A DNA stretch of 35,815 nt, taken from NCBI GenBank assembly GCA_905479705.1, contig CAJQNP010000095.1, positions 1 through 35,815 on the forward strand. Direction: 5' to 3'. Shown piece by piece: positions 5,284 to 31,174 of this stretch (positions within the stretch are counted from its first letter, which is position 1; each line of letters begins with the position of its first letter). The notes under the pieces were generated by a model. The model saw nothing but the letters and a program-made list of their open reading frames with translations. It was not told the DNA's origin and did no database searches. Made by a program: the position numbers and the translations under genes. The stretch comes from an uncultured Gammaproteobacteria bacterium. GTDB taxonomy: Bacteria; Pseudomonadota; Gammaproteobacteria; UBA9214.

Positions 5284-6273
5284 TCACGCGCGCCTGCTGC
5301 ATTGCCTGATGGCCGAGTCGATGGCCATCTGCAGGCTGCCGGTATGTATGTTGCCGGTCCCGGCGAGGTCCAGCGCCGTACCGTGATCAACCGAGGTACG
5401 AACAAGCGGCAGGCCCAGGGTAATGTTCACGGCCTCGCCAAAGCCGCTGTATTTCAGTACCGGCAGCCCCTGGTCGTGGTACATCGCGAGGATGACGTCG
5501 CAGTCGGCTGCCTCGCTTGAATTGAAGATGGTGTCCGCCGGCAACGGGCCGACAAGCTTTATGTTCTGTTCGCGCAATGCCTGCAGGGCAGGGATGATGG
5601 TATCGATCTCCTCGCGGCCGAGGTGTCCGCCTTCTCCGGCATGCGGATTCAGGCCGCACACACCAATGCACGGCTGACTGATTGCAAAGCGCGACTGCAG
5701 GTCGCGGTGCAACACCTGGATGACCCGCTGCAAGCGGTCCGCGGTGATGTGTGCGCTGACCTGCGCGAGGGGCAGGTGGGTCGTTACCAGGGCAACGCGC
5801 AATGTCTCGGTCGCCAGCATCATCACCACGTCGCGGGTTCCGGTTCTGGCCGCCAGGTATTCGGTATGGCCGCTGAAGGGGATGCCGGCATCATTGATGA
5901 CACCCTTGTGCAGCGGAGCGGTGACCAGTGCATCGAAGCGGTCCGACAGGCAACCGTCGATGGCGGCATCCAGTGTGTCGAGGACGTAACGTGCATTCCC
6001 GGTGTCCAGCGTGCCGCTGTGTACAGTTGTCCTGGTACTGACCGGCAGGATACACAATTCACCGGGCGCGACTGTTGCCGTGCCGGCCGTGTCAAACAGC
6101 CGGTAGCGAAACGGCAGTTCAAGCTGCGCAGCCCGCCGGGCCAGCAGATCCGGGTCGGCGATGATGATAACCTCGGCAGCGCGTTGCTGCCCGGCAAGCA
6201 GCAGGCACAGGTCCGGGCCGATACCGGCAGGTTCGCCGGCGGTCAGGGCAATTCGGGGTAGACGGGTGGTCAC
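5284..6273 (-). CDS. pdxA: 4-hydroxythreonine-4-phosphate dehydrogenase
   Basis: PdxA oxidises 4-phosphohydroxy-L-threonine with NAD(P)+ in the DXP-dependent pathway to pyridoxal 5'-phosphate. The product spontaneously decarboxylates and is used by PdxJ. The 329-residue length matches the family. Visible signatures are the N-terminal [11 protein letters not shown] and three metal-binding histidines in [17 protein letters not shown] and [12 protein letters not shown]. It lies 32 bases downstream of surA in the same direction, the usual surA-pdxA order. The expected next gene, rsmA (ksgA), is absent, and the convergent zntB takes its place. Confidence 0.97.
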
Positions 6274-6305
6274 GCCGTGCGGCTCATGAAGCAGGATTGC
6301 CCTGT

Positions 6306-7661
6306 TCAGGGCATGTCGATGCGATACTCCACATACGACTCATCACGCAGGCGTCGCATCCAGAGAATCAACTCTTCATCGTATTTACGTGCGCGTAACA
6401 GTTTTTGCACCTTGGCACGTTCATATTCCTCGGTGCTGTCATGGGTGCGGCGCTCCTGTACCTCGATAAGGTGCCAGCCGAATTCAGTTTTCACCGGTGT
6501 GCTGAGTTCGCCGGGTGCAAGCCTGTTCATGGCCTCCTCAAACTCGGCTACCGTGTCGCCCTGGTTGAGCCAGCCGAGATCGCCGCCGCGTGCTGCAGAC
6601 AGGGTATCCTGCGAGTTGGCGAGTGCAATGGTGGCGAAATCCTCACCGCCACGCAGGCGAATCTCCAGTTGCCGAATGCGCGCCTGCACATCGGCATCGG
6701 AGTGGAGTTCATCCGGTTTGATCAGGATGTGACTCGCCCTGGTCTGTTCGACAAAGTGGCGTTCGTCGCCGCGCTTGTCCATCAGCTTGATGATGTGGAA
6801 ACTGCCAGAGCTGCGGATCGGGTCAGAGATGTCACCCACCTGCATGGTCTTGACGGTATCGATAAACATGCTGGGCAACTGGCCCAGGTTGAGCCAGCCG
6901 AGATCGCCGCCTTCCAGGGCTGTCTGGCTGTCGGATGTAACCAGGGCTACTTCGGCAAAGTCGGCACCGCCGCGCAGGCGACCGAGAGTCGAGTTGGCGC
7001 GTGCCTCGGCAGCCCGAACTTCCTCGGGGCTGGCGGCCTCAGGGATGGCAATCAGTATGTGTCCAAGGCGGAATTCGACATCGCCCTGGCCGCTGGCCTT
7101 GAGTGTCGCGAGCAGGTTGTCGATCTCCTGGTCGTTGACCTTTATACGGCTGGCAACCATCTGCCTGCGTACCTGCATGATGGTCATCTGGCGGCGCAGG
7201 TCGTTGCGGAACTGTTGGTAACTGTAGCCGTCACGTTCCAGGATGTCGCGAAACTCGGTCAGGCTGACGCCGTTCTTCTCGGCGAGCCCCTTGATCTCCT
7301 CGTTGAGAACGCTGTCTTCAATCGTGATGCCGTTTGTGGTGGCGAGTTGCAGTTGCAGTGATTCTATCACCAGCTTGTTCAGCACCTCCCTGCTCAGGGT
7401 TGCCTGGTCCGGTATGGGCGTGCCTTTATCATTCAGCTGCCGGGTGATCTGCTGCGTGGCGCGCTCCAGTTCGCTGGCAAGGATGATGTCTTCGTTGGCG
7501 ATGGCCACAATACTGTTGAGCGGGTATTGCGGACGGGCCGCGGGTTCTTGCAGACGTGCCTCTTCAGTCAGCGGGGCTTCGACAGGGGCTTCATCAACGG
7601 CGGTTACAGCGGAAACGGAGAACAGCAGGCACAGGCCGGACAGTGCGGAAAAATACTTCAT
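6306..7661 (-). CDS. surA: Periplasmic chaperone and peptidyl-prolyl isomerase SurA
   Basis: SurA escorts outer membrane proteins, including LptD, from the Sec translocon to the BAM complex. The 451-residue product has a signal peptide ([21 protein letters not shown]) and an N-terminal SurA chaperone domain (about 45-175, beginning [18 protein letters not shown]). Two parvulin-type rotamase domains follow (about 195-295 and 305-405), each with the LGWLN...F motif, and then a C-terminal helix. The N-terminal linker after the signal is rich in acidic residues and proline. The gene starts 21 bases after the lptD stop and is surely co-transcribed with it. Confidence 0.97.
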
Positions 7662-7682
7662 CGGAAACTCTTTCAGGGGTAG

Positions 7683-10577
7683 TTAAAGTGAATCGTAGCC
7701 AAGGATACCACGTTCCAGTGCCTTATCGACGGTGTTCACCAGCCGGCCCAAGCCTTTCAGTTCGACCTGCATGAAGATGGCGTTGTTTCTCTCGTTGCGG
7801 TTCTTGATGAAGCTGCGACCGACCAGCTGTACGGACCAGCAGCAGCTCTCGTAACCAAGGCCACCCATTGCCTCGAGTGTCTCGTTGTCGAGCAGCGAGT
7901 AATACCAGCGGCCCACCAGGTGCCAGGAATTGCCCAGTGGCCACAGTGCGGAGATGTCCGTTTGCTCCTGGATACCCCGGCGATAGCGGTAGGCGAGGTT
8001 GACCAGCTGCCGTGACCCCTTGCGGTACTGCAGGTGCAAGCTGTTGCGTTCTGTCTGCGAGGCATGCGGGTTCCACTGTGTCTCGGCCCTGGCGCGCCAG
8101 TTGTGTGTCAGGCCCAGGGTCAGCTCGCCAATGATGTTCGATGTACTGTCTGTCTCCACCTGTTCACCTGGCAGGGTGACCTCGCGATCGCGAAAGTACA
8201 GCAGCGAGCCCACGCTGATACTGAGCTGCTCCACGCCGCTCGCCGGGTTGAGTAGCCGCGATGTCAGCGCCACCGCCAGCTGGTTGGCATCGCCCATGCG
8301 GTCCGGCCCGCTGAAACGGTTCTCACGGAACAGTGTCCAGTAGTTGAAGTCGTAATCACTGGTGTCGAAGATCGGGATTTCATCCTGGTCGACTTCCGGG
8401 ACATACAGGTAGAACAGGCGTGGCTCCAGTGTCTGTACAAAGTCCGTGTTACCCCAGCGGCTGCTGCGTTCGAAGAAACTGCCGGCGTCGAGGCTGACGA
8501 TGGGCGTGGTTCGCGCGGGATTGTCGTTATCACTCTGAATGTTGTCGGTGAGGTTGTAGGCGGTATAGCGTACCGCCACGGACGGGTCGACATACCAGCC
8601 GGGCCGGTTGACCGGCAGGCTCAGTGTCGGTTGTATATCAAAGCGTGCGCCCTCGACCAGTACGTCGCCGCTGTGCCTGAAGTTGTTCAGTTCGGCGTTG
8701 GCGTCGAACTTCATGCCGAGGTAGCGGCTGGCCGGTTCGACGTTGAGCACAACCCTTGGCAGTTGCTCATACGGCCTGTTCTTTGATTTGATGGTCGGGT
8801 CGATGGTCTGGTAGTTCTGCACCATGACACCGAGGTCCCAGCCGCGTCCGAAATAGTCTGCCTTTGCGGTGCGTTCCAGGTTGGTCTGGCTGGTCTGCAC
8901 CAGGTTCTTGCCGAAGTCATCAAAGTAGAAATCATCCGAGACCTCGCTGGCCTTGACGGACGTCTTGAGTCGCGGCCACGGGTTGCCCTTGTGCTGGAAG
9001 CCGACCAGGTAACGGTCTTCATCATTGAACTTCCTGTCCGAGGGCAGGTACTCGCCGCTCACGCTGCCCTTGTTGTTCTCGTTCTTGTAGCGAAACTCGC
9101 CGCCCAGCATCACACCGCGATCGGTCATGATGCGCGGTACGATGGTGGCGTCACGGTGCGGCGCGATATTCCAGTACCACGGTATGCTGACATCGAAACC
9201 GGTCTCGTCTGTGATGCCGAATTTCGGTACCAGGAACCCCGACTTGCGGCGATCATCCAGCGGGAAGCTCAGGTAGGGGGAATACAGCACCGGAACTCCC
9301 TTGAGTTCGACCTTCGCATGGCGTGCCGTGCCGCTACCGGATTCCTGGTCAAGGTCGACCTTTTTCGCGAAGATCTCCCAGTCGGTGCTCTCTATGGAAC
9401 AGGTGGTATACGACACATCGCGCAGGTGCTGCCAGTCGCGACCCTCGAGTTCCAGGGACGAGGCCACCCCGCGCGCGTGCTGGTCCGGCAGGGCGTAGCG
9501 GGCGTCTTCTACATCGCCGATACCGGTGTCCGGGTAGAGCGTGCCGCGCGCGCCATCGACCAGCAGCTCGGGTGAGGTATAAACCAGGTTTCCGTCGGCA
9601 TCGATACGGCCTTCTTCCTGGTTATACGTCATGCGGTCCGCTTCCAGGCGCTGCCAGTCCATCTCGGCAACGGCATTGCCTTCCAGTATGAAGATATTGT
9701 TGTCGCGTGCCTGCGCGTTGTCGGCCTGCAGTTCGACGGTGCCCGAAGGACCCGCGGGTGCCTCGACGCGACGGTAATCGATTTGCGGACACTGTACCCA
9801 GCGCGAGTAGGCCAGTGCCTCGTCGAGTCGTTCGTCGGCGATACCCGTGATCGTGCCCAGTGTCGACGTCGCGCCACCGGGTTCGACGATGTCTGTGATG
9901 TCTGTAACAGGCCCGGCATCTTCCCCTGTGGTGGCCGCAACGCTGGCCCCGGGCGTGGGTGTGTCCGGGGTCGTTTCCCGGGCGGGTTCTGCCGAAGTTT
10001 GTTCAATGACCGGCTGCTCGATCTCCCCGTCATCTTGCGATGTCCCGGTTGTTGTATCCGCTACCGGCTGCCCGGTTTCCCCGTCCGCTGGTGATTCCCC
10101 GGTCGGCGTGACGGCTGCGGCCGGTTCCGCGGCCGGTTCCGGGGCTATTGGAGTGCTGGAAGATTCCTCCAGCGGTTCTGCGCCCGGGGTGGCCGCGGGT
10201 GAACTGCCCGGGGATGTCGTTGTCGGAAACAGCGGTGCAGCGGTTGCCGGGACGCTGCCGTGTCCAGGGGCGGGTTGTGCCAAGGGTTGTTCCGGGGGTA
10301 GTGCGTCTTGTGCCTGCGGTGTCGTGGGTTCGGTCGTGACTGGTGTGGCGGCTGCCGGATCAGTGTCCGTGTCAACACTGTCATCAGCCCTGGCGGGATC
10401 GATAGCCGGTATGGCTGGCGCCATAGCGGGTTGCCCGGCCGGTGTCAGTGTGCTGGTGCAGTCCCAGGATCCGTCTGCACTGTCCTGGCACTGCCATGGG
10501 CCCGCGTTTGCCGATGCTGTGCCGAGTATCAGCAGTGAGGCGATCGCGACCGGTTGCAGGCGCTGACGGATTAGCAT
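7683..10577 (-). CDS. lptD: LPS-assembly outer membrane protein LptD with low-complexity N-terminal insert
   Basis: LptD is the outer membrane barrel that, with LptE, inserts lipopolysaccharide into the outer leaflet. The ORF opens with a GTG at 10592, but ATG at 10577 is the better start (MLIRQRLQPVAIASLLILGTASANA signal peptide). The 964-residue protein has cysteines at about 30 and 40. A Pro/Ala/Thr/Glu-rich disordered tract of roughly 200 residues (about 45-250) follows, then a further cysteine in VQCPQ. The OstA beta-jellyroll follows (TVELQADNAQARDNNIFILEGNA) and then the LptD barrel to the C-terminus. The adjacent cysteine pair GYESCCW near the C-terminus matches the conserved pair that forms the essential disulfides with N-terminal cysteines. 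The insert makes it longer than enteric LptD. Confidence 0.95.
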   Translation of the reverse strand: MLIRQRLQPVAIASLLILGTASANAGPWQCQDSADGSWDCTSTLTPAGQPAMAPAIPAIDPARADDSVDTDTDPAAATPVTTEPTTPQAQDALPPEQPLAQPAPGHGSVPATAAPLFPTTTSPGSSPAATPGAEPLEESSSTPIAPEPAAEPAAAVTPTGESPADGETGQPVADTTTGTSQDDGEIEQPVIEQTSAEPARETTPDTPTPGASVAATTGEDAGPVTDITDIVEPGGATSTLGTITGIADERLDEALAYSRWVQCPQIDYRRVEAPAGPSGTVELQADNAQARDNNIFILEGNAVAEMDWQRLEADRMTYNQEEGRIDADGNLVYTSPELLVDGARGTLYPDTGIGDVEDARYALPDQHARGVASSLELEGRDWQHLRDVSYTTCSIESTDWEIFAKKVDLDQESGSGTARHAKVELKGVPVLYSPYLSFPLDDRRKSGFLVPKFGITDETGFDVSIPWYWNIAPHRDATIVPRIMTDRGVMLGGEFRYKNENNKGSVSGEYLPSDRKFNDEDRYLVGFQHKGNPWPRLKTSVKASEVSDDFYFDDFGKNLVQTSQTNLERTAKADYFGRGWDLGVMVQNYQTIDPTIKSKNRPYEQLPRVVLNVEPASRYLGMKFDANAELNNFRHSGDVLVEGARFDIQPTLSLPVNRPGWYVDPSVAVRYTAYNLTDNIQSDNDNPARTTPIVSLDAGSFFERSSRWGNTDFVQTLEPRLFYLYVPEVDQDEIPIFDTSDYDFNYWTLFRENRFSGPDRMGDANQLAVALTSRLLNPASGVEQLSISVGSLLYFRDREVTLPGEQVETDSTSNIIGELTLGLTHNWRARAETQWNPHASQTERNSLHLQYRKGSRQLVNLAYRYRRGIQEQTDISALWPLGNSWHLVGRWYYSLLDNETLEAMGGLGYESCCWSVQLVGRSFIKNRNERNNAIFMQVELKGLGRLVNTVDKALERGILGYDSL

Positions 10578-10610
10578 GCCGCTGGTTTCCACGGGCTGTC
10601 ACAGGGGCTG

Positions 10611-10639
10611 GGTATCGTCAGGCCGGTAATCATTGTCAG
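10611..10639 (-). promoter_or_regulatory. Possible sigma-70 promoter for lptD-surA-pdxA
   Basis: On the minus strand, CTGACA (5 of 6 matches to the -35 consensus) is followed after exactly 17 bases by GATACC (3 of 6 to the -10). This would start transcription about 25-30 bases upstream of the lptD ATG. Spacing and position are good but the -10 is weak. I see no clear sigma-E motif, which controls lptD in enteric bacteria. Confidence 0.3.
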
Positions 10640-10733
10640 GGTACAGGATCGGATTTTCCGGGCAGCGGGTCGCTGGCGGGCGCGAGGTAAAATCGCATAG
10701 AATGGCCGTAACTTCAAATATTTTAATATCAGT

Positions 10734-11906
10734 GTGTTATCTATCAAATCACGTAGACAAATAGGCGTCATTGCCGGCCTTGTCGGGGTAGTCATCCTGC
10801 TTGTCCTGACCGCGCCGGACAGCGAGCCCGAGCTGGAAGAATCCATCGTGCCCGCGGTTCAGGTGGCCATGGTCGGCTTGCATGATCTGCTGCCCACCGA
10901 GACCGTCAGCGGCAGACTGCAGCCGGCCCGCAAGGCGGCATTGCATTTCGAGCTGGCCGGGCAGGTTTCCGAGCGACCGGTTGAGCCGGGGCAGGCGGTC
11001 GGGCAGGGTGCCCCCCTGCTGCAGCTGGCGTCCGGTGATTATGAAGATGCGCTGGCCGAGGCCGGGGCCATGCTGTCGCAGGAGAAGCGCAACATCCAGC
11101 GCGATCGCGAACTGCTGGCGCTGTCGCGCAACAACTACACCCTGCAAAAAAACGACCTCGATCGTCTCCTCAAACTCGGTGAGGATTCACTGGTGTCGAA
11201 GTCGCGGCTGGATGAAACACGCATCAAGCTGATCCAGCTGGAGTCGGAGGTGGCCCGGCTCAAGTCAAGCGTGGCCACCGCGGAATCGCGCATCGCGCTC
11301 AAACAGGCTGCCCGTAACCGGGCCGCACGCAACCTCGAGCGCACGCAATTACCGGCACCCTTTGCCGGCACCGTGAACGCGGTGAATGCGCAGGTCGGTG
11401 ACTACGTGACGCCCAGCCAGGTCATGGTGGACCTGATCGATGCGGCCTCGCTGGATCTGTATGCCGAGGTGCGTGGCAGTGTGGCGCAGTCACTCAAGCA
11501 GGGCCAGGCCATCACGGTCGAGGTCGATGGCATGGCGTTACAGGGCACGCTGATTGCACTGCAGATGGATCCCAGTCCGGACACGTTTACGCATGCCCTG
11601 CGTGTGCGTATTGACGGCGACAGCGCGCGGCCAGGCCAGGTCGCACGGGTACGTCTGCCATTACAGCAACGCCGGCGTGTTACCGCGGTGCCGTCAACCG
11701 CCGTGCTGTTTGATGAAGGCCGGGCCTTCGTGTTCCGGCTTGACGGCGACAGCCTGCAACAGGTCCCCGTGATAACAGGCGAGCGGGTCGACGGTCTGCA
11801 GGTCGTGCTGCAGGGCCTGGACGAGAATGACCGCGTGGTGTCCCGTGATGTCTCGGCGCTCAGTAACGGCCAGCGCGTGCAGGTCCTCGAGCCGGACGCA
11901 CGCTGA
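10734..11906 (+). CDS. RND efflux periplasmic adaptor (membrane fusion protein)
   Basis: A 390-residue HlyD/AcrA-family adaptor that would link the inner membrane pump encoded next to an outer membrane channel. An N-terminal membrane anchor (about 9-24, IGVIAGLVGVVILLVL) precedes a first half-lipoyl/barrel strand (TVSGRLQPARKAALHFELAGQV). A coiled-coil hairpin follows (about 105-195), then the second lipoyl half (LPAPFAGTVNAVNAQVGDYV) and beta-barrel and proximal domains. Translation seems to begin at a GTG; no good Shine-Dalgarno precedes it and AT-rich sequence runs right up to it. The stop is 32 bases before the pump gene. It is divergent from lptD across 156 bases. No TolC-like gene is present, so a channel must be shared from elsewhere. 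Confidence 0.92.
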   Translation: MLSIKSRRQIGVIAGLVGVVILLVLTAPDSEPELEESIVPAVQVAMVGLHDLLPTETVSGRLQPARKAALHFELAGQVSERPVEPGQAVGQGAPLLQLASGDYEDALAEAGAMLSQEKRNIQRDRELLALSRNNYTLQKNDLDRLLKLGEDSLVSKSRLDETRIKLIQLESEVARLKSSVATAESRIALKQAARNRAARNLERTQLPAPFAGTVNAVNAQVGDYVTPSQVMVDLIDAASLDLYAEVRGSVAQSLKQGQAITVEVDGMALQGTLIALQMDPSPDTFTHALRVRIDGDSARPGQVARVRLPLQQRRRVTAVPSTAVLFDEGRAFVFRLDGDSLQQVPVITGERVDGLQVVLQGLDENDRVVSRDVSALSNGQRVQVLEPDAR

Positions 11907-11938
11907 GCCTCGCGCCGTACACCTGATCCTGTCTGCAC

Positions 11939-14900
11939 ATGGGCCTGATACGCTTTTCCATCAACAACCCGCTGATCACCAACCTGTCGTTGCTGATCGT
12001 GATCATCCTTGGCGTGTTGTCATGGAACTCGATGCCGCAGGAGATGTTCCCGTCCTTTGAGCTGGACGCGGTCAGTATCGCCATCAAGTTTGAAGGCGCC
12101 TCTCCGGAGGAGGTGGAACGCCAGGTCATCATTCCTGTTGAAGAACAGTTCGAGGGCATGCCCGAGATCGATGTCATGAGCTCGGTCAGTAACGAGGGGC
12201 TGGGTACCGTCATCATCAAGCTGAAGAGCGGTACCAATGTTGACCAGTACATGCGCGATGCGCAGACCGCGATTGACCAGATAATGGATCTGCCCGACGA
12301 GGCGGAGGAACCGGAGCTGGTACGTATCAAGGCGCGCTTCCCCGTCATCAGCATGAGCCTGTACGGCGACGTCGCGCGCGGTTACCTGTATGACCGTGCC
12401 GACGAGATCAAGCAGCGCATGGCAAAGATTCCGGGTGTCGCCAGTGTCGGTATCGCCGGTTACCGCGAGTGGGAGCTGTGGGTCGAGGTGGATCCATTCA
12501 AGCTGGCTGCGCACTCCGTCTCCCTGGGGCAGGTTTTGAGCGCCATTCGCGGTAACCTGCGTGATTTGCCAGGCGGCTCCCTGAAGGCCAGCGAGGGCGA
12601 TATCCTGCTGCGCGGCAAGGGCGTGGCACCCGACCCGGAAGACATCGGCAAGATTGCGGTGCGCAGCAACGAGCGTGGTGGCCAGTTGCTGCTTGGCGAG
12701 ATCGCCAACATCGAGCTGCGACTGGAGGAGGCCGTGACCATTGGCCGCTTCAATGGTCGCCCTGCCGTCAACCTGACGGTGACCAAGACATCCGATGCCT
12801 CGACCACCACGGTGGCCGATGCCGTGCGCGAGTTTGCCGATCAGTTGCGCACGGAGTTGCCCCCCACCATCGAGATCGGCATGTTCAACGACCTCTCGGC
12901 CTACGTGAAGACGCGCCTCAACACGGTGAAGTCCTCGGGGCTGGTCGGCCTGTTCCTGGTGCTGCTGTCGCTGTACCTGTTCCTGAATTTTCGGGTTGCC
13001 CTGATCACTGCCATGGGCATCCCGGTGTCTTTCCTGTTTGCCGTGATCGCGATCTTCTATCTCGGCTACACCATTAACATGATCTCCCTGTTTGCCTTTC
13101 TCATCGCGCTGGGCCTGATCGTCGATGATGCCATCATTGTCAACGAGAACATCTATCGTCACATGGAGCAGGGCCTGCCGGCCCCGGAGGCCGCCCGCAT
13201 CGGAGCACGCGAGGTATTCTGGCCGGTCATGGCGAGTACCGCGACCACCATTGCGGCCTTCATGCCGATGTTTGCCATCAAGGGCATCATGGGTGCATTC
13301 ATTGCCGTGATACCGGTTGTCGTGACTGCCTCGTTACTGGGTTCACTGTGGGAGGCCTTCGGTGTGTTGCCGTCACACGCGGCCGAATTGCTGCACACCA
13401 GACGGGCGGCTGCGCGCACGCACGAGCGTAGCGTTGACTGGAGTGCCTTGCTGGAGCGCTATATTGGCTGGCTGCGCTGGTCCCTGCATAACCGCTATTT
13501 TGTCGCGCTGGTGTCCATCATCGTGCTGGTTATTTCAGCGACCTATGCAACCACGCGCCTGCCGTTCCAGCTGTTTGACGACGTGGAACTGGGGCAGTTC
13601 TTTATCAACGCCGAGGCGCCGCAGACCTACAGCCTGGAAGACACGGCCAAGCTGGCCTCGCAGATGGAACAGGTCGTGCTCGAGTCGTTGTCCGATGACG
13701 AGCTGAGTTCCCTGCTGACCAACGTCGGCGTCACCTTTATCGATTTCAATCGCTTTGAACTGGGCAGCAAGTATATCCAGCTGGTGATCGATCTGAAGAA
13801 ACCGGTACCGGAGGGTTTTATCGAGCGCTTCATCTCGCCACTGGTCAGTCTCAAGTTCAAGTGGGAAGGCACGCGTACCCGCCCGACCGAGGACATTGTC
13901 AACGAGCTGCGAGCCAGGCTGCGCAGGATTACCGGCATCAGCCGCATCTCCATACAGCGGCCACAGGGCGGACCGGCCGGTGCGGATATCGAGGTCGGTG
14001 TAACCGGGCCGGACGTGAACGTGTTGCGTGAACAGGCCGAGCGCATGCTGGAATACCTGCAGCGCCTGCCGGGTGTGCACGATGTGCGTCAGAATCTCGA
14101 GAGCGGCAAGATCGAGTACCGGTATTCACTGAATGATCGCGGCCGCGAGCTGGGCATCGACCAGAACCAGCTGGCCGACGCGGTGCGTACCGGTTTCCTC
14201 GGTGTCGAGGTGGTCTACGTGACGCTGGGTAACAAGCGTACGCCGGTGCGCGTGATCTACCCGGAGCGAATCCGTCAGACCAGCGATCTCGCGAGCCTGC
14301 CAATCGTGCTCGATGACGGTCGCCTCGTGTACCTCGGCGATGTCGCGGACATTACCCCCGGCCGTGCCATGAACACCATCAGCCGGCGCGATAACCAGCG
14401 CCTTGGCCTGGTCACGGCCGAGGTGGACGACCAGGTGACCACCCCGCTGGCGGTGACCGAGTTGCTGCGCAGTGAATTCGAGCACATCGAGGCCGAGTTG
14501 CCCGGCTACACGCTGGTGTTCCTCGGCGAGAAGAAGGATGCGTCGGAATCGTTCAGCGGTATGCGCGATGCCCTGCTGATCTCCGGTGCCCTCATTTTCT
14601 TTATCCTGGCGGCCCTGTTTCGCTCCCTGCTGGATCCGCTGGTGGTGATGTTTGCGATCCCCTTCGGCATGATCGGCGTGGTGTTCGGGCACATGCTGTT
14701 TGGTTATAACCTGCAGTTCCTGTCGGTCATCGGTTTCCTGGCGCTGACCGGCATCGTGGTGAATGACTCGCTGATTCTCGTCAACTTTGCCCAGCGCATG
14801 CGTGCCGAGGGCATGAGCCGTGTTGATGCCATGATCGAGGCGGGCAGGGTGCGTATCCGGCCGATCCTGCTGACCTCGATTACCACGTTCCTGGGCATTT

Positions 14901-15100
14901 CGCCGCTGATCTTTTTTGCCACGGGACAGACGGCGTTTCTCTCGCCGATGGCGGTCAGCCTGGGTTTTGGTTTACTGTTCGCGACCGGTATCATCCTGAT
15001 CGCGATCCCATGCTTCTACATGATTGCCGACGATATGCGCGTGCGTGTGCGCAACAGGCTGCGCCGGCTGCTGCCCCCGTCTGCCCGTGATACCGACTGA
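11939..15100 (+). CDS. RND efflux transporter permease (AcrB superfamily)
   Basis: The 1053-residue proton-driven inner membrane pump is the right length for the hydrophobe/amphiphile efflux family. TM1 is near 10-28 (NPLITNLSLLIVIILGVLSW), a large periplasmic loop runs to about 335, and TM2-6 span about 337-490. The proton-relay segment LIVDDAIIVNENIYRHME holds the paired aspartates in TM4. The second half repeats the plan with TM7 near 525-543 and TM8-12 from about 875 onward. The N-terminal FPSFELDAVSIAIKFEGASPEEVE is typical. Substrate cannot be predicted. It forms an operon with the adaptor and is followed 37 bases later by amgK. Confidence 0.95.
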   Translation: MGLIRFSINNPLITNLSLLIVIILGVLSWNSMPQEMFPSFELDAVSIAIKFEGASPEEVERQVIIPVEEQFEGMPEIDVMSSVSNEGLGTVIIKLKSGTNVDQYMRDAQTAIDQIMDLPDEAEEPELVRIKARFPVISMSLYGDVARGYLYDRADEIKQRMAKIPGVASVGIAGYREWELWVEVDPFKLAAHSVSLGQVLSAIRGNLRDLPGGSLKASEGDILLRGKGVAPDPEDIGKIAVRSNERGGQLLLGEIANIELRLEEAVTIGRFNGRPAVNLTVTKTSDASTTTVADAVREFADQLRTELPPTIEIGMFNDLSAYVKTRLNTVKSSGLVGLFLVLLSLYLFLNFRVALITAMGIPVSFLFAVIAIFYLGYTINMISLFAFLIALGLIVDDAIIVNENIYRHMEQGLPAPEAARIGAREVFWPVMASTATTIAAFMPMFAIKGIMGAFIAVIPVVVTASLLGSLWEAFGVLPSHAAELLHTRRAAARTHERSVDWSALLERYIGWLRWSLHNRYFVALVSIIVLVISATYATTRLPFQLFDDVELGQFFINAEAPQTYSLEDTAKLASQMEQVVLESLSDDELSSLLTNVGVTFIDFNRFELGSKYIQLVIDLKKPVPEGFIERFISPLVSLKFKWEGTRTRPTEDIVNELRARLRRITGISRISIQRPQGGPAGADIEVGVTGPDVNVLREQAERMLEYLQRLPGVHDVRQNLESGKIEYRYSLNDRGRELGIDQNQLADAVRTGFLGVEVVYVTLGNKRTPVRVIYPERIRQTSDLASLPIVLDDGRLVYLGDVADITPGRAMNTISRRDNQRLGLVTAEVDDQVTTPLAVTELLRSEFEHIEAELPGYTLVFLGEKKDASESFSGMRDALLISGALIFFILAALFRSLLDPLVVMFAIPFGMIGVVFGHMLFGYNLQFLSVIGFLALTGIVVNDSLILVNFAQRMRAEGMSRVDAMIEAGRVRIRPILLTSITTFLGISPLIFFATGQTAFLSPMAVSLGFGLLFATGIILIAIPCFYMIADDMRVRVRNRLRRLLPPSARDTD

Positions 15101-15137
15101 GATTGCCTTGTCTTTGCACTGATACAGGACCACCCGC

Positions 15138-16139
15138 GTGCCCGAACGAATTGAACAACTGAAGAACTGGCTGAGCAGCGAACTCGATTTCAGCGAGTAC
15201 ACGCTCGAGCCGGCATCATCCGACGCCAGTTTCCGGCGCTACTTTCGCGTGGTCCATGCAGGCGAGAGCCTGGTCGTCATGGATGCGCCGCCGGCGCAGG
15301 AAGACACCCGGCCGTTCGTGCAGGTGTCCGGCATGCTCGCCGGGCTGGGGCTGAATGTGCCGCAGGTCATTGATGAAGACCCGCAGCAGGGTTTCCTGCT
15401 GTTGTCCGATCTCGGTTCAAGGCCCTACCTGGAAGCGCTCACCGAGGAGACCGTGGAACGACTCTATGGTGATGCGCTGGGCGCGCTGGCAACCATCCAG
15501 GCGTGTACCCCGGGCGACGCACCGCTGCCTGCCTATGAGCGGACGCTGCTGCTCAATGAGATGGAGCTGTGCCGGGAATGGCTGATCGGCAAGCACCTTG
15601 GCCTGGCGCTGACGCAGCAGCAGTCAGCCCTGCTCGATGCGGCCTTTGACCTGCTGGCGGACAGTGCACTGCAGCAACCGCAGGTGTGTGTGCACCGTGA
15701 CTATCATTCGCGCAACCTCATGCTGACGGAATCCAACAACCCGGGCATCCTCGACTTTCAGGATGCCGTGATAGGGCCGGTGACCTACGACCTGGTATCG
15801 CTGCTGCGCGACTGTTACATCGACTGGCCGCGCGAGCAGGTCGAGGACTGGGCGCTGGGTTACCAGACGCTGGCGCTGCAGTCCGGTGTGTTGCAGGCGG
15901 GGCACGATGATCCGCAGCAGTTCCTGCGCTGGTTTGACCTGATGGGGATACAGCGTCATCTCAAGGCGGCCGGAATCTTTGCACGCCTGAATCATCGTGA
16001 TGGCAAGCCGGGTTATCTCGGCGACATACCGCGCACCCTTGGCTACGTCGTCGAGGTTGCCACGCGTCACGAGGACCTGGCTGCCTTTGGTGCGTTTATC
16101 GAGTCCGCCGTGCTCGCGCGCCTGCCTGATGCGAACTGA
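15138..16139 (+). CDS. amgK: N-acetylmuramate/N-acetylglucosamine kinase AmgK
   Basis: AmgK phosphorylates the anomeric carbon of MurNAc (and GlcNAc) recovered from peptidoglycan turnover. MurU then makes UDP-MurNAc, bypassing de novo synthesis and thus fosfomycin. The 333-residue protein has the aminoglycoside-phosphotransferase fold. SSDASFRRYFRV is the nucleotide-binding start (28-38), HRDYHSRN (187-193) holds catalytic Asp188 and Asn193, and LDFQDAVIGP contains metal-binding Asp206. The start codon is GTG. In Pseudomonas amgK and murU are adjacent and lie beside lptD. Here an RND operon separates it from lptD, and four other genes separate it from murU. Confidence 0.92.
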   Translation: MPERIEQLKNWLSSELDFSEYTLEPASSDASFRRYFRVVHAGESLVVMDAPPAQEDTRPFVQVSGMLAGLGLNVPQVIDEDPQQGFLLLSDLGSRPYLEALTEETVERLYGDALGALATIQACTPGDAPLPAYERTLLLNEMELCREWLIGKHLGLALTQQQSALLDAAFDLLADSALQQPQVCVHRDYHSRNLMLTESNNPGILDFQDAVIGPVTYDLVSLLRDCYIDWPREQVEDWALGYQTLALQSGVLQAGHDDPQQFLRWFDLMGIQRHLKAAGIFARLNHRDGKPGYLGDIPRTLGYVVEVATRHEDLAAFGAFIESAVLARLPDAN

Positions 16140-16184
16140 AGGACACGTTATCGGCTTCATTGTGGCAACCCGGCAGGTGAACAG

Positions 16185-16787
16185 ATGACGCGACTCTGGC
16201 TGCTGGTGTTTACGCTGGTGTTTGTCTGGTCAGCGATTAATCCCGCGGACTTCCTGACCTGGCTGCTGGAGGTGTCACCGGCCGTGCTGGCGCTGCTGGT
16301 ACTGGTCGCCACGCGCAAGGTGTTTCCCCTGACAGGGCTGGTCTACAGCCTGCTCCTGCTGCACTGCATCATATTGATGGTTGGTGGACACTATACCTAC
16401 GCAGAGGTACCGGCCTTTGACTGGATACGGGACACCTTTGGGCATGCACGCAACAACTATGACAAGGTTGCCCATTTCGCACAGGGTTTCGTGCCGGCGA
16501 TGGTCGCGCGCGAGGTGCTGCTGCGTTTTCAGGTGGTCAACGGTCGTGCCTGGCTGAATTTCCTGATCGCGTGTTTTTGCCTGGCCGTCAGTGCCTTCTA
16601 TGAACTGGTAGAATGGCTTGTCGCCGTGATCGTCGGCGGACCTGCCGAGGCGTTTCTGGGTACCCAGGGTTATGTCTGGGATACGCAGTCGGATATGGCG
16701 TTCGCACTGCTGGGCGCCATCAGCGCATTGCTGCTGCTTGGCAGGGTACATGACAGGCAACTGCAACAGCACGGCTGGTTGCCGTGA
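16185..16787 (+). CDS. DUF2238 / YjdF-family inner membrane protein
   Basis: A 200-residue polytopic membrane protein with about five to six hydrophobic segments (roughly 4-20, 28-43, 52-66, 104-118, 126-148, 166-184). The conserved block HYTYAEVPAFDWIRD...NNYDKVAHFAQGF and the later FYELVEWLVA, WDTQSDM motifs mark the DUF2238 family, of which YjdF of Escherichia coli is a member. No biochemical role is established that I can state. It starts 45 bases after amgK, in the same direction, and is probably co-transcribed. Confidence 0.85.
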   Translation: MTRLWLLVFTLVFVWSAINPADFLTWLLEVSPAVLALLVLVATRKVFPLTGLVYSLLLLHCIILMVGGHYTYAEVPAFDWIRDTFGHARNNYDKVAHFAQGFVPAMVAREVLLRFQVVNGRAWLNFLIACFCLAVSAFYELVEWLVAVIVGGPAEAFLGTQGYVWDTQSDMAFALLGAISALLLLGRVHDRQLQQHGWLP

Positions 16788-16808
16788 AACGAAGCAACGA
16801 GGTGGATA

Positions 16809-17108
16809 ATGGGTAATCTGGGTTTTCCGTGGCTGGCGCTGGGACTGGGACTGCTGGTTGCCGTCGGGCTGGTGTTCTCCGGGGCACTGTCGCCTGAAGG
16901 GCGCTATGACCTGCCGCTGCTGACCATGCTGATCGTCAACGAATTCGGTTTTTTCGTGACCGCCATCGGTGCCGGTGTCGGTATCAACACCTTGAGCCGG
17001 GACGGGATACAGCAACCCCTGCTCACTGTCGTGATCGCCTGCGGCATCCTTGCCGCAGGTTTTCTCTATGTTGCCATCAAGCTATGGCCGGGGATGGGAA
17101 CAGCATAG
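16809..17108 (+). CDS. Small membrane protein of unknown function
   Basis: The 99-residue product has three predicted transmembrane helices, at about 6-26, 36-56 and 72-92. The middle one, LLTMLIVNEFGFFVTAIGAGVGI, carries an unusual Asn-Glu pair near its start. A GAGGTG ribosome binding site lies eight bases upstream, and the gene follows the DUF2238 gene by 21 bases, so it is likely real and part of the same transcript. I do not recognise the family. Confidence 0.7.
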   Translation: MGNLGFPWLALGLGLLVAVGLVFSGALSPEGRYDLPLLTMLIVNEFGFFVTAIGAGVGINTLSRDGIQQPLLTVVIACGILAAGFLYVAIKLWPGMGTA

Positions 17109-17282
17109 GGGCTTGCGGGCGATCGTCTCGGTGCACTTCTTCTTCATTACCGGGGTCTTTGTTGATGTGGTTGTTATGGCGCTGTGTAAGGGTTGTGTGG
17201 CTGTTGTAACCAGCTGCACAATGCCGCGGAACTGCTTGATCTCGATATGTTTCAATGGCTTGTAAGTATGCGGGCTCGACCA

Positions 17283-17939
17283 ATGGCGACTGATCTGCCT
17301 GTGCTGTACTCCTTTCGCCGCTGCCCCTACGCGATGCGGGCGCGCATGGCCCTGTCCTATAGCGGGATTTCCGTCGAGCTCCGCGAGGTGCTGCTGCGTG
17401 ACATGCCGGCAGCGCTGTTGAGCTGCTCGCCGAAGGGGACGGTGCCGGTGCTGGTGCTGGAGGACGGGCGGGTGATCGAGGAGAGCCTGGATATCATGCG
17501 CTGGGCGCTTGCGGCCCGGGACCCTGATCACTGGCTGGCTGTCGATGCAGCGACACAGCTCGCGGATATAAACGGCCTGGTAGACGCCAATGACCGCTCG
17601 TTCAAGCCACAGCTGGATCGCTACAAGTATGCCGAGCGCTACCCGGAACAACCGGCCGCTGCATACCGCCGTGCGGGTGAACGGTTTCTGCAGCAACTGG
17701 AACAGCGCCTGGCAAGGACGGCGTGGTTGTGTGCCGGCCGCATGACGCTGGCGGATGTTGCCATCTTCCCGTTTGTTCGCCAGTTCGCCTTTGTCGACAA
17801 GCCGTGGTTTGACGCCGCAGCGTATCCTCGCCTGCAGGCATGGCTGGACGGTCTGCTTGAGTCGGTGTTGTTTCTGGGGGTCATGCAAAAGTACCCGCAG
17901 TGGCATGCGGGCGATGTGCCCACGGTGTTTCCCGATTGA
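17283..17939 (+). CDS. Glutathione S-transferase-like protein
   Basis: A 218-residue protein with an N-terminal thioredoxin-fold GST domain (about 1-78) and an all-helical C-terminal domain (about 90-205). VLYSFRRCPYAMRARMAL near the start places a cysteine at the usual catalytic position of omega/beta-like GSTs. KGTVPVLVLEDGRVIEESLDIM holds the cis-proline and the Glu-Ser pair that bind the glutathione gamma-glutamyl group. The ORF could open 90 bases earlier, but MATDLPVLYSF is the natural domain start; an ATG five codons earlier is possible. No strong ribosome binding site helps decide. The substrate is unknown. Confidence 0.88.
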   Translation: MATDLPVLYSFRRCPYAMRARMALSYSGISVELREVLLRDMPAALLSCSPKGTVPVLVLEDGRVIEESLDIMRWALAARDPDHWLAVDAATQLADINGLVDANDRSFKPQLDRYKYAERYPEQPAAAYRRAGERFLQQLEQRLARTAWLCAGRMTLADVAIFPFVRQFAFVDKPWFDAAAYPRLQAWLDGLLESVLFLGVMQKYPQWHAGDVPTVFPD

Positions 17940-17989
17940 TCTGCATTTCTGTAGGATAGCCGTTCATAACAGGCTTGCTGCATAACTCC

Positions 17990-18385
17990 ATGTCCGGGAA
18001 AATACTGTTTTCAATTATCGAGTCGCCCATGCATCCGGATTTCTCCGGGCTCTACAGGCGGCTCGGGTTTCAGCAGGTCAAACTGGCCTCCATGCGCAAG
18101 GCCATCAGCGCATTAAAGACGCAAACACCGGCAATCGTGGTCGCTGAATTCATGTATGGTTATGGCAATAACTATGCCGGGGTCAATGTCAGTAATCTCG
18201 ATGTATTCCTGTACAGCCTGCAAAAATATTCACAGGACAGTGACATCGTTCTGCTGGTGGACAAGAGCGAGCTGCAGTACGTTGACAAGCTGCGTGCCCT
18301 GTTTCCTGTGTATGCAGTCTTGCAGCAGCCGGTGAATGAAGCTGCCATGGAGCGGTGTCTGACGAGGGGGGAACCAGCGGAATGA
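17990..18385 (+). CDS. Conserved-looking cytosolic protein of unknown function
   Basis: The 131-residue product, starting MSGKILFSIIESPMHPDFSGLYRRLGF, has alternating hydrophobic strands and helices (KILFSII, PAIVVAEFMYG, DIVLLVDK, VYAVLQQPV). These look like a small Rossmann-like or receiver-like alpha/beta fold, but the phospho-acceptor Asp pattern of a response regulator is not evident. It lies between the GST gene and murU on the same strand, with 61 bases to murU. I do not recognise the family and assign no function. Confidence 0.7.
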   Translation: MSGKILFSIIESPMHPDFSGLYRRLGFQQVKLASMRKAISALKTQTPAIVVAEFMYGYGNNYAGVNVSNLDVFLYSLQKYSQDSDIVLLVDKSELQYVDKLRALFPVYAVLQQPVNEAAMERCLTRGEPAE

Positions 18386-18425
18386 AAACAGGCGGACAGA
18401 GGTTGTTGCCAAGGCAGCGTGTTGA

Positions 18426-19115
<690 letters not shown>

Positions 19116-27326: not shown

Positions 27327-28670
27327 GTGTCAAAATACCTCACCGCACCGCTTCCCGCGCAGGGTATGCCCGGTGGCATGCCCTTTATTATCGGCAATGA
27401 GGCCGCCGAGCGTTTCAGCTTTTACGGCATGCGTGCCATCCTGGTGGTGTTCATGACCCAGTACCTCGTCGGCTCCGGCGGGGCGCTGGACGTGATGTCC
27501 GAGGAGGAGGCCAAGGGCTGGTACCACCTGTTTGTCTCTGGCGTGTATCTCACGCCCGTGCTGGGTGCGCTGCTGTCCGACGGTGTGCTGGGCAAGTACC
27601 GCACCATCATCCTGTTATCGCTGGTGTACTGTGCCGGTCACGCCGCGCTGGCGCTGGATGACAGCCGTGTCGGTCTGGTCGTCGGGCTGGGTCTGATTGC
27701 CATCGGCGCGGGGGGGATCAAACCCTGCGTGTCCTCGCACCTGGGCGACCAGTTTGGACAGAGCAACCAGGGACTGTTGTCGCGCGCCTTCTCGTGGTTC
27801 TATTTTTCCATCAACCTGGGTGCGTTCGTGTCCAGTCTCGCGACACCCTGGCTGCTGGCACACTATGGCGCATCGGTGGCCTTTGCCGTGCCCGGTATTC
27901 TGATGTTGCTCGCGACCCTGATGTTCTGGGCAGGTCGTCATCGTTTTGTGCATATCCCGCCGGGTGGCCGCGAGTTCCTCAGGGAGACCTTCAGTCGCCG
28001 CGGTCTGGGTACGCTGGGCAGGCTGGTCATCGTTTATCTGTTTGTCGCGGTGTTCTGGTCGCTGTTCGACCAGACCGGTTCGTCATGGGTGTTGCAGGCG
28101 GCCCATACCGATAATGTGCTGCTGGGTATCGAACTGTTGCCTGCCCAGATACAGGCGGCCAACCCGCTGCTGGTGATGCTGTTGATCCCGCTGTTCTCCT
28201 ACGTGATCTACCCGGCGATCGACAGGGTGTTTCCACTGACGCCGCTGCGCAAGATAGCGATTGGCCTGTTTCTGGCTGCGGCTGCCTTCAGTATTCCGAC
28301 CCTGATCCAGATGTCGATTGACCGCGGTGGCTCGCCCTCGATCGCCTGGCAGCTGCTGGCCTATATCGTGCTGACCGCGTCCGAGGTCATGGTCTCGATC
28401 ACCTGCCTGGAGTTTTCCTATACGCAGGCACCCAGGACCATGAAGTCATTCGTGATGGCCTTCTTCATGTTGTCGATTTCGCTTGGCAACCTGTTTACCA
28501 GTGCGGTCAACTTCCTGATCCAGAGGCCCGATGGCAGCAGCGCACTGCAAGGCGCGGACTATTTCCTGTTCTTCACCGTGCTGATGCTGGTAACAGCGAT
28601 ACTGTTTATTATCGTGGCACGCTATTACCGCGGCGAGACCTATATCCATGCCGAGCAGGCGGCGGCCTGA
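27327..28670 (+). CDS. POT/PTR-family proton-coupled oligopeptide transporter
   Basis: A 447-residue MFS transporter of the POT family that takes up di- and tripeptides with protons. The ExxER-type motif is present as NEAAERFSFYGMRAILVVFM (near 24-43). The second family signature is SWFYFSINLGAFVSSLATPWL (near 156-176). About 12 or more hydrophobic helices are visible. Translation begins at GTG with an AGGGA about eight bases before; the first ATG, 13 codons later, is close to TM1 and less likely. The next gene starts 14 bases after its stop. Confidence 0.93.
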   Translation: MSKYLTAPLPAQGMPGGMPFIIGNEAAERFSFYGMRAILVVFMTQYLVGSGGALDVMSEEEAKGWYHLFVSGVYLTPVLGALLSDGVLGKYRTIILLSLVYCAGHAALALDDSRVGLVVGLGLIAIGAGGIKPCVSSHLGDQFGQSNQGLLSRAFSWFYFSINLGAFVSSLATPWLLAHYGASVAFAVPGILMLLATLMFWAGRHRFVHIPPGGREFLRETFSRRGLGTLGRLVIVYLFVAVFWSLFDQTGSSWVLQAAHTDNVLLGIELLPAQIQAANPLLVMLLIPLFSYVIYPAIDRVFPLTPLRKIAIGLFLAAAAFSIPTLIQMSIDRGGSPSIAWQLLAYIVLTASEVMVSITCLEFSYTQAPRTMKSFVMAFFMLSISLGNLFTSAVNFLIQRPDGSSALQGADYFLFFTVLMLVTAILFIIVARYYRGETYIHAEQAAA

Positions 28671-28684
28671 ACCCGGGCGACGCC

Positions 28685-29782
28685 ATGCGCATCCTGCTCC
28701 TGTCAGCCTATGACGCACACAGCCACCGCCGCTGGCGCGAGGGACTGGTTGCGGCATTCCCGGATTGGCACTGGACGGTGCTGACGCTGCCGCCGCGACA
28801 TTTCAGCTGGCGTGTGCGTGGCAACAGCCTTGGCTGGGCGTTTGCCGAGCGCGATACCCTGCAGCAACCCTATGACGTGCTTGTTGCCACGTCGATGACT
28901 GACCTGTCAGCCCTGAAGGGCATGGTGCCGGCGCTGGCATCGCTACCCGGCCTGGTGTACTGCCATGAAAACCAGTTCGCCTACCCGGACCGGCGCGAGT
29001 CGCTGCGCCTCGAGCCGCAGTTCACCAGCCTGTACGCGATGGTATCGGCCGATTGCGTGTTGTTTAACTCGGCGTACAATCGCGACACGTGTCTCGCCGG
29101 CGCACAGGCACTGTTGCGAAAGATGCCGGATGCCGTACCCGCGGGGGTGATTGAATCCATTGCGGACAAGAGCCGTGTCCTGCCTGTCCCGATCGAGAAT
29201 CACTGGTATGAGGAAGCACACCGCAGCATGGATAGCGCACAGCCACTGACCATCGTGTGGAACCACCGCTGGGAATACGACAAGGCACCGGAGCGCATGC
29301 TGGCCGCGCTGCTAGCATTACATGAAGCCGGTATCAATTTCAGCGTGCACGTGATCGGTCAGCAGTTTCGCAAGCAGCCAGAGGTATTTGCCGAGATGTA
29401 TCCGCGCCTGAAACAACACATCGGTGAGTGGGGCATGGTTGAGTCTGCGCAGGACTACAAGGCATTGTTGCAGAACGCGCATGTGGTGCTGTCCACCGCG
29501 CTGCATGAGTTCCAGGGACTGGCCGTGCTCGAGGCGGTTGCCAGTGGCTGCGTTCCGCTGGTGCCGGACCGCCTGTCCTACCCGGAACTGATCCCCGCGG
29601 CCTGTCGATTTGCCTCGTCACCGGAGGATGCCGGGGCAGAGAGCCGTGCGATCGCGGCTCAGCTGGGGCTACTGGGCCGGCAGTACGCGCGGGGTGAACT
29701 GCCCGCGGCGCCGGATGTCGGAAGACTATCCTGGCAACATCTTGCCGCAGACTACCGGGAAGTCATTCATGGTCTCGCGTAA
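28685..29782 (+). CDS. DUF3524/QTMAN-type glycosyltransferase (tRNA-queuosine mannosyltransferase-like)
   Basis: The 365-residue GT-B protein begins MRILLLSAYDAHSHRRWREGLVAAFPDWHWTVLTLPPRHFSWRVRGN, the hallmark of the DUF3524 domain (about 1-170) that defines animal GTDC1/QTMAN. In vertebrates that enzyme mannosylates queuosine at the wobble base of tRNA-Asp. YCHENQFAYP (near 97-106) and DCVLFNSAYNRDTCL are family blocks. The C-terminal GT4-like half has VWNHRWEYDKAPE and ALHEFQGLAVLEAVASGCVPLVPDRLSYPEL, the donor-sugar site. A bacterial homologue implies sugar modification of queuosine or of another substrate; the donor is not predictable. Confidence 0.88.
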   Translation: MRILLLSAYDAHSHRRWREGLVAAFPDWHWTVLTLPPRHFSWRVRGNSLGWAFAERDTLQQPYDVLVATSMTDLSALKGMVPALASLPGLVYCHENQFAYPDRRESLRLEPQFTSLYAMVSADCVLFNSAYNRDTCLAGAQALLRKMPDAVPAGVIESIADKSRVLPVPIENHWYEEAHRSMDSAQPLTIVWNHRWEYDKAPERMLAALLALHEAGINFSVHVIGQQFRKQPEVFAEMYPRLKQHIGEWGMVESAQDYKALLQNAHVVLSTALHEFQGLAVLEAVASGCVPLVPDRLSYPELIPAACRFASSPEDAGAESRAIAAQLGLLGRQYARGELPAAPDVGRLSWQHLAADYREVIHGLA

Positions 29783-30650
29783 CAAGGAGCAGTTTCACGG
29801 TGGACGTAATGCGCAGCGCGCCATGCCACTGTCACTGCGCGCCATTCGCCTTGCCTTCTCGACCCTGGGTCCCGTCTTCCCGCGCCTGATGGGACGGCGC
29901 GCATTTGACCTGTGGTTTCGTACCCGCCGTTTTCCCGAGTCGGCTGCCGGCAAGCGCTTTACCCGTGAGGCGCAACGCGAGACGCTGATGGTGGAGGACT
30001 TGCCGGTGGCGGTCTATACCCTGGGCGAGGGACCGATTGTGCTGTTCGTGCACGGCTGGTCGGGGCGTGGCAGCCAGGTGGCGGCGTTTTCCGGACCGCT
30101 GGTCGCTGCGGGCTACCGGGTCATGGCTGTCGATGCCCCGGGTCACGGAGACACCCCCGGAGACCGGACCAACATCCTCGAATGCACGGCCGTGCTGCAG
30201 GCGTTCGCGCACAAGTACGGCAACGTGCATGCGGCGATTACCCATTCTTTCGGGGGCATGGTGCTGGCCTATGCGATGCACAACGGTGTGCATATCGACC
30301 GCGTGGTATGCATCAGCGCGCCCGCCCATGTGGATTACCTGCTGGACAGTTTTGCACAGACCCTGGCAATCCCCGACACGGTCATCGAGGATGTGCACCG
30401 GCGCATGGACGAGCGATTCGAGGAGGGTTTCTGGCAAACCATCTCCACCGTGGTCAACGTGCGTGAGCTGGATGTGCCGGCGCTGGTGATCCATGACGGG
30501 GATGATCACAATGTTCCCTGGGAGCAGGGAAAGATCATTGCGAATGCGTGGCCGGGTGCGCGGTTCATGAAGACCACCGGGCTGGGTCACGGGCGTATAC
30601 TGCGTGATGCCGGTGTCGTCACGGCTGCAGTGGATTTCATCGGCGCGTAA
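29769..30650 (+). CDS. Alpha/beta hydrolase
   Basis: A 293-residue protein with an alpha/beta-hydrolase core. VLFVHGWSGRGSQ provides the oxyanion loop, ITHSFGGMVLAYAM the nucleophile elbow with its serine, VIHDGDDHNVPW the acid and GLGHGRIL the catalytic histidine. The first ~70 residues are basic and partly hydrophobic (LSLRAIRLAFSTLGPVFPRLMGRRAF), perhaps membrane-associating. I prefer the ATG overlapping the previous gene by 14 bases; the next ATG is at 29823. The substrate is unknown, probably an ester or thioester. The genes on either side give no clear hint. Confidence 0.88.
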   Translation: MVSRNKEQFHGGRNAQRAMPLSLRAIRLAFSTLGPVFPRLMGRRAFDLWFRTRRFPESAAGKRFTREAQRETLMVEDLPVAVYTLGEGPIVLFVHGWSGRGSQVAAFSGPLVAAGYRVMAVDAPGHGDTPGDRTNILECTAVLQAFAHKYGNVHAAITHSFGGMVLAYAMHNGVHIDRVVCISAPAHVDYLLDSFAQTLAIPDTVIEDVHRRMDERFEEGFWQTISTVVNVRELDVPALVIHDGDDHNVPWEQGKIIANAWPGARFMKTTGLGHGRILRDAGVVTAAVDFIGA

Positions 30651-30685: not shown

Positions 30686-31174
30686 ATGAAACTCTACCTC
30701 GTTCAGCATGGCCAGGCCGTCCCGAAGCAGGAAGATCCCGGGCGCCCCCTGGGCGAGCAGGGCAGGGAAGACGTGCAGCGCGTGGCGGCCTGTCTCGGTG
30801 AGGCGGGTGTCCGGGTGGTGCGTGTCTGGCACAGTGGCAAACTGCGCGCAGCTGAAACAGCCGGGATCCTTGCAGGGAAGGTGTGTTCAGGCAAGCAGGT
30901 CGAGATGATCAAGGGTATCCAGCCGAATGACCCGGTGGACGAGTTTGCCTCGGATGCCGATGTCTGGGGCGAGGATACCCTGGTGGTCGGTCACCTGCCG
31001 TTTATGTCGCGGCTGGTGTCCCTGCTTGTTGCGGGTGACGGCAAGCATGAACTGGTTCATTACACGCCCGGCAGCGTCGTGTGCCTGCAGCGCGATGACA
31101 GCGACCGCTGGGTCATCAGCTGGATGCTGAGTCCCGGCCTGCTGGGCGCGGCCCCGGCTGTGAGTGCGCCATGA
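30686..31174 (+). CDS. sixA: SixA-like phosphohistidine phosphatase
   Basis: A 162-residue histidine-phosphatase-superfamily protein. SixA removes phosphate from histidine residues, as on ArcB or the nitrogen PTS protein NPr in Escherichia coli. The catalytic motif reads LVQHGQA, with His8 intact but Gln7 in place of the usual Arg of RHG. HSGKLRAAETAGIL (near 50) and the second histidine in VVGHLPFMSRLVSLL (near 100) are present. An AGGA precedes the ATG. Its stop overlaps the start of an 82-codon gene by four bases. Confidence 0.85.
   Translation: MKLYLVQHGQAVPKQEDPGRPLGEQGREDVQRVAACLGEAGVRVVRVWHSGKLRAAETAGILAGKVCSGKQVEMIKGIQPNDPVDEFASDADVWGEDTLVVGHLPFMSRLVSLLVAGDGKHELVHYTPGSVVCLQRDDSDRWVISWMLSPGLLGAAPAVSAP

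Follow-up and report, generated by a model that had tools for sequence, protein, structure and literature searches.

Two of the closest described systems act on queuosine (Q) in tRNA. GluQRS (YadB) glutamylates Q34 of tRNA-Asp, and the animal enzyme QTMAN (GTDC1) uses GDP-mannose as its sugar donor. The latter is a tRNA-queuosine alpha-mannosyltransferase according to PMC12518689 and PMC12313893, both of which cite Zhao et al. 2023 for this activity, and sugar-bearing Q has been described together with QTMAN for animals (PMC12518689, PMC12313893, PMC8654956). Further modification of Q34 can abolish its binding in boronate (APB) gels (PMC12313893). A search of a literature collection for bacterial hexosyl-Q or for a biochemically tested bacterial relative of QTMAN found neither; Zhao et al. 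2023 or other work outside this collection may mention bacterial homologues.

Here, we analyzed a 35,815-nucleotide stretch of DNA from an uncultured gammaproteobacterium (contig CAJQNP010000095.1; hereafter, the window), which carries a gene with the hallmarks of this family. Like animal QTMAN, its product combines a full-length N-terminal domain of family PF12038 with a GT4 C-terminal domain. GluQRS provides a second point of comparison: it also decorates bacterial Q34 and is usually encoded in the same genomes as the QTMAN-family gene, but it is an unrelated protein and adds glutamate, whereas QTMAN adds a sugar.

Domain architecture and conservation

The open reading frame at 28685-29782 on the forward strand is complete, starts with ATG and encodes a protein of 365 aa. 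Residues 2-170 (28688..29194, forward strand) match all 168 positions (1-168) of QTMAN_N (PF12038.13) with an E-value of 3.2e-53 and a score of 180.5 bits, the curated cut-off being 25, a match well outside what chance would give. This family, formerly DUF3524, is described in Pfam as the N-terminal domain of tRNA-queuosine alpha-mannosyltransferase. The C-terminal half contains a GT4-like, putative donor domain (29246..29632, forward strand), in which residues 188-316 match Glycos_transf_1 (PF00534) with an E-value of 7e-8. Both halves had been recognized in the initial annotation, as a DUF3524 block followed by a GT4-like region, and the profile matches bear this out. By analogy with the general layout of GT-B enzymes, the QTMAN_N half would form the acceptor side.

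Conserved residues are found in both domains. Among 64 bacterial relatives aligned end to end, 18 positions are invariant, eight of them in the N-terminal domain (S13, H14, Y92, H94, E95, P101, F127 and N128), the remaining ones being W192, H194, R195, W196, D199, K200, P202, G225, G278 and E283. Several of the latter fall in a motif of the C-terminal domain, W192-N-H-R-W-E-Y-D-K200. The [E/D]X7E motif of GT4 enzymes corresponds to E275X7E283 in the window protein; position 275 is D or E in 89/89 sequences (D in 63, E in 26) and position 283 is E in 88 of the 89. Comparison with a 70%-identical protein from the same genus gives identities of 0.80, 0.85 and 0.50 at codon positions 1, 2 and 3, respectively, which indicates purifying selection on the protein. 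The open reading frame is thus a real gene, and on sequence grounds its homology to the QTMAN family can be regarded as solid.

The structure model of the window protein is confident (pLDDT 94, pTM 0.92) and predicts a GT-B fold. The best matches found by Foldseek among solved structures are retaining GT4 enzymes with the GT-B fold (probability 1.00, TM-scores mostly 0.6-0.7), namely, GlgM, MshA, glycogen synthase, sucrose-phosphate synthase, PimB', PimA with GDP-mannose, and BshA. PimA and PimB' are GDP-mannose enzymes. Since these structural matches are just 11-18% identical in sequence to the window protein, they do not reveal its acceptor; PimA/PimB', MshA, GlgM and BshA are alike in fold but differ in their acceptors. 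A sequence search of solved structures with the window protein retrieved no relative, and a profile search of the same collection gave a single distant and partial match, 5i45.

The sequence collections used yielded no animal member, and for comparison with the animal enzyme we used a provisional human GTDC1 sequence, vetted solely by its Pfam score (E-value of 1e-67 against PF12038). This provisional sequence is 31% identical to the window protein overall and 39% identical across 174 alignment columns of the C-terminal part, with a BLASTP E-value of 6e-37 for the C-terminal half. It has the same residue at 18/18 of the invariant bacterial positions, which, given the provisional letters, serves as a lead only. 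PF12038 is named for the animal enzyme, and the match to the animal GTDC1/QTMAN family proposed in the initial annotation holds at the level of this domain; the provisional human sequence agrees with it but is no independent test. In a tree of the family, the provisional human sequence is placed near three Myxococcota proteins on a long branch, its exact position being unresolved, and this placement is not relied on here. The proteins also differ: the window protein is 365 aa long, compared with 458 aa for the provisional human sequence, and lacks the long stretch that separates the two domains in the latter.

Distribution of the family

With each species represented by a single genome, at least 585 relatives were detected. 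Among the 80 matches listed, most come from marine Gammaproteobacteria (Marinobacter, Microbulbifer, Spongiibacter, Zhongshania, Nitrincola and others), and the same 80 include Mariprofundus, a member of Myxococcales and a Lujinxingiaceae bacterium. The gene is present in 16/276 genomes of an even sample of the class, in 17 of the 141 genomes sampled from Myxococcota, the phylum of the Myxococcales relative, and in 13/19 genomes of the window's own family. QTMAN-family genes are therefore patchy yet not rare, and because they are common in some bacterial groups the window gene is not unusual. It is an ordinary-looking new member of a known and already named family, with a specific predicted function. 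No plasmid copy of the gene was found in a plasmid search. E. coli, one of the control genomes, gave no PF12038 match; laboratory strain K-12 makes Q and has GluQRS. One relative (G068:C30:38780-39142, L110) has an internal stop codon and is probably a decayed copy.

The occurrence of that copy and the patchy distribution, in particular the low count in the class-wide sample, are what one would expect of a redundant or decaying gene with no present function, but the window gene has an intact frame, a strong codon-position bias of divergence, all 18 invariant residues and a gene order conserved in its genus, which makes such a gene highly improbable here.

Queuosine pathway and putative sugar donor in carriers

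The host genome is equipped for Q in tRNA: it encodes tgt (C79:33782-34870), queA, which directly adjoins tgt, and queG (on contig C240). A genome without queuosine synthesis, named in the initial annotation as grounds for abandoning a queuosine role, is thus not what is observed, and the presumed acceptor is available. Genes for synthesis of GDP-mannose are available in the same genome as well, in the form of two GMP_PMI enzymes over the cut-off (on C171 and C117). The host is unlike animals in that Q is made de novo and gluQRS is present.

The same genes were looked for in other carriers. Tgt is encoded by 16/16 carriers of the class sample and 17/17 carriers from Myxococcota, compared with 245/260 class non-carriers. 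QueG scored over the cut-off in 32/34 carriers, with a fragment at a contig end in a further one; all 17 Myxococcota carriers have QueG (one copy being cut by a contig end), as do 111/124 non-carriers of that phylum. The fragmented genome of one carrier (G086) contains neither QueG nor GluQRS. Because nearly all genomes sampled in these groups have Tgt and QueG, with or without the gene, finding both in carriers cannot reveal an association; it is consistent with a queuosine role. About half of the genomes in the Myxococcota sample gave at least two Tgt-family matches each, and a Tgt paralogue is thus common in this phylum. For GMP_PMI, matches better than 1e-30 are found in all 16 class carriers versus about 193 of the 260 non-carriers (Fisher p = 0.015, uncorrected for kinship or genome size), an excess that is suggestive of GDP-mannose as the donor.

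Proposed reaction and coexistence with GluQRS

The family, the predicted fold, the conserved residues and the presence of Q-pathway and GDP-mannose genes in the same genome are all observed here. On this basis the gene probably encodes a retaining GT-B enzyme of the QTMAN family that transfers a hexose, in all likelihood mannose donated by GDP-mannose and joined in alpha linkage, onto queuosine of tRNA. The host would first make Q on its own tRNA through Tgt, QueA and QueG, and the enzyme would then cap part of this Q with a single hexose. The acceptor site would be a hydroxyl on the cyclopentene ring of Q34, at the wobble position of a tRNA with a GUN anticodon, GDP-mannose would be the most likely donor and the linkage would be alpha.

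Not all parts of this proposal are equally firm. We infer that Q-tRNA is the acceptor, and that the enzyme glycosylates tRNA queuosine in one form or another appears likely. Mannose as the sugar and tRNA-Asp as the target are less sure than the type of reaction. The sugar is probably mannose, and an alpha linkage would fit retaining chemistry. The least certain step is tRNA-Asp as the acceptor tRNA, which would follow from analogy with animals, because most carriers also have GluQRS, whose substrate is that same nucleoside.

GluQRS scored over the cut-off in 14/16 class carriers, to which the window's own genome adds a copy cut by a contig end (G000:C69:3-548, L116), versus 156/260 non-carriers (p = 0.006, uncorrected for kinship or genome size). 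Among all carriers examined, it was over the cut-off in 64/74 genome handles, at least four of which represent the same genome reached twice. GluQRS and the QTMAN-family enzyme are thus usually encoded in one cell and are not alternatives to each other. Mutual exclusion of the two would have been a pointer to tRNA-Asp; it was accordingly rejected. Their wide coexistence speaks against a plain transfer of the animal tRNA-Asp target to bacteria; if both used only tRNA-Asp, the two enzymes would compete. In bacteria with both, Q34 might meet a fate that the literature searched does not describe, namely, mannosyl-Q or another hexosyl-Q, either on tRNA-Asp in competition with glutamyl-Q, or on other GUN tRNAs, or with glutamate and the hexose each on its own hydroxyl of a single Q; we regard this as quite possible, if somewhat short of probable.

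The same coexistence would be compatible with bacterial enzymes that modify queuosine in a way not seen in animals, with a different sugar, a different GUN tRNA (Tyr, His or Asn) or Q that already bears glutamate. The modest identity of the bacterial enzymes to the provisional human sequence, just 27-38%, points in this direction too. However, coexistence is no proof of different targets, because both enzymes could modify tRNA-Asp partially, and the invariant residues are common to the bacterial proteins and the provisional sequence of the animal enzyme. We consider a departure of this kind from the animal reaction unlikely.

If bacterial members of the family share the chemistry of QTMAN, sugar-bearing queuosine is not an animal invention, and the origin of animal QTMAN becomes a question that can be asked. 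Cultivable marine bacteria would then offer simple models for the role of the modification in decoding. The coexistence with GluQRS raises a testable question of its own, namely, how Q34 would be shared between glutamate and sugar within one cell.

Gene neighbourhood

The gene lies between a POT-family oligopeptide transporter (27327..28670, forward strand), which ends 14 bases before it, and an alpha/beta hydrolase on the same strand (29769..30650; open frame 29610-30650). The hydrolase probably starts with the ATG at 29769, within the last codons of the glycosyltransferase gene, which gives a protein of 293 aa, the same length as in a relative (L009). Given the 14-base gap upstream and the overlapping start downstream, the three genes are likely to be co-transcribed, and the order transporter, glycosyltransferase, hydrolase is conserved in the window's genus. 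A SixA-type phosphohistidine phosphatase follows at 30686..31174, also on the forward strand (TIGR00249, 9.6e-31); we do not think that it is part of the gene's function.

Across families, no partner is conserved next to the gene, and the regions of about 4 kb around the relatives' genes contain no tgt, queA, queG or gluQRS. In genomes of the Cellvibrionales type, trpS (tryptophan--tRNA ligase) is located directly 3' of the gene (L039:5174-6187 and about 13 other loci). Elsewhere, MFS/ArsJ and pyruvate:ferredoxin oxidoreductase genes adjoin it. About nine Marinobacter loci (L038, L051, L053, L057, L062, L069, L080, L084 and L089) have upstream genes for proteins resembling mannosyl-3-phosphoglycerate phosphatase and sucrose phosphorylase, together with glucosyl-3-phosphoglycerate synthase (GpgS).

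The latter neighbourhood suggests that the protein might be a GT4 enzyme that works in small-molecule metabolism (on glucosylglycerate-type osmolytes, for example) or in polysaccharide synthesis, with the same fold but without tRNA as a substrate; the fold, indeed, matches GT4 enzymes of many acceptors. However, other Marinobacter have the gene in quite different surroundings, and GpgS is missing from the window's own genome and from 43/59 carriers, so a role in glucosylglycerate metabolism was rejected as the general function. As for polysaccharides, no polysaccharide cluster was present among the recurrent neighbours scanned, and the nearest NCBIfam model, that of the EpsE-type exopolysaccharide GT4 (NF041876), was rejected because its score of 31 bits is far below the cut-off of 400. 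Taken together, a function outside tRNA seems improbable, and we favour transfer of a hexose to tRNA queuosine.

Further upstream in the window, at 5284-19115, genes for PdxA, SurA and LptD are followed by an RND efflux pair (10734-15100). The region also encodes a phosphotransferase of the APH type (15138-16139) and, separated from it by other genes, a nucleotidyltransferase (18447-19115); these two resemble the amgK-murU pair, which is often found near lptD.
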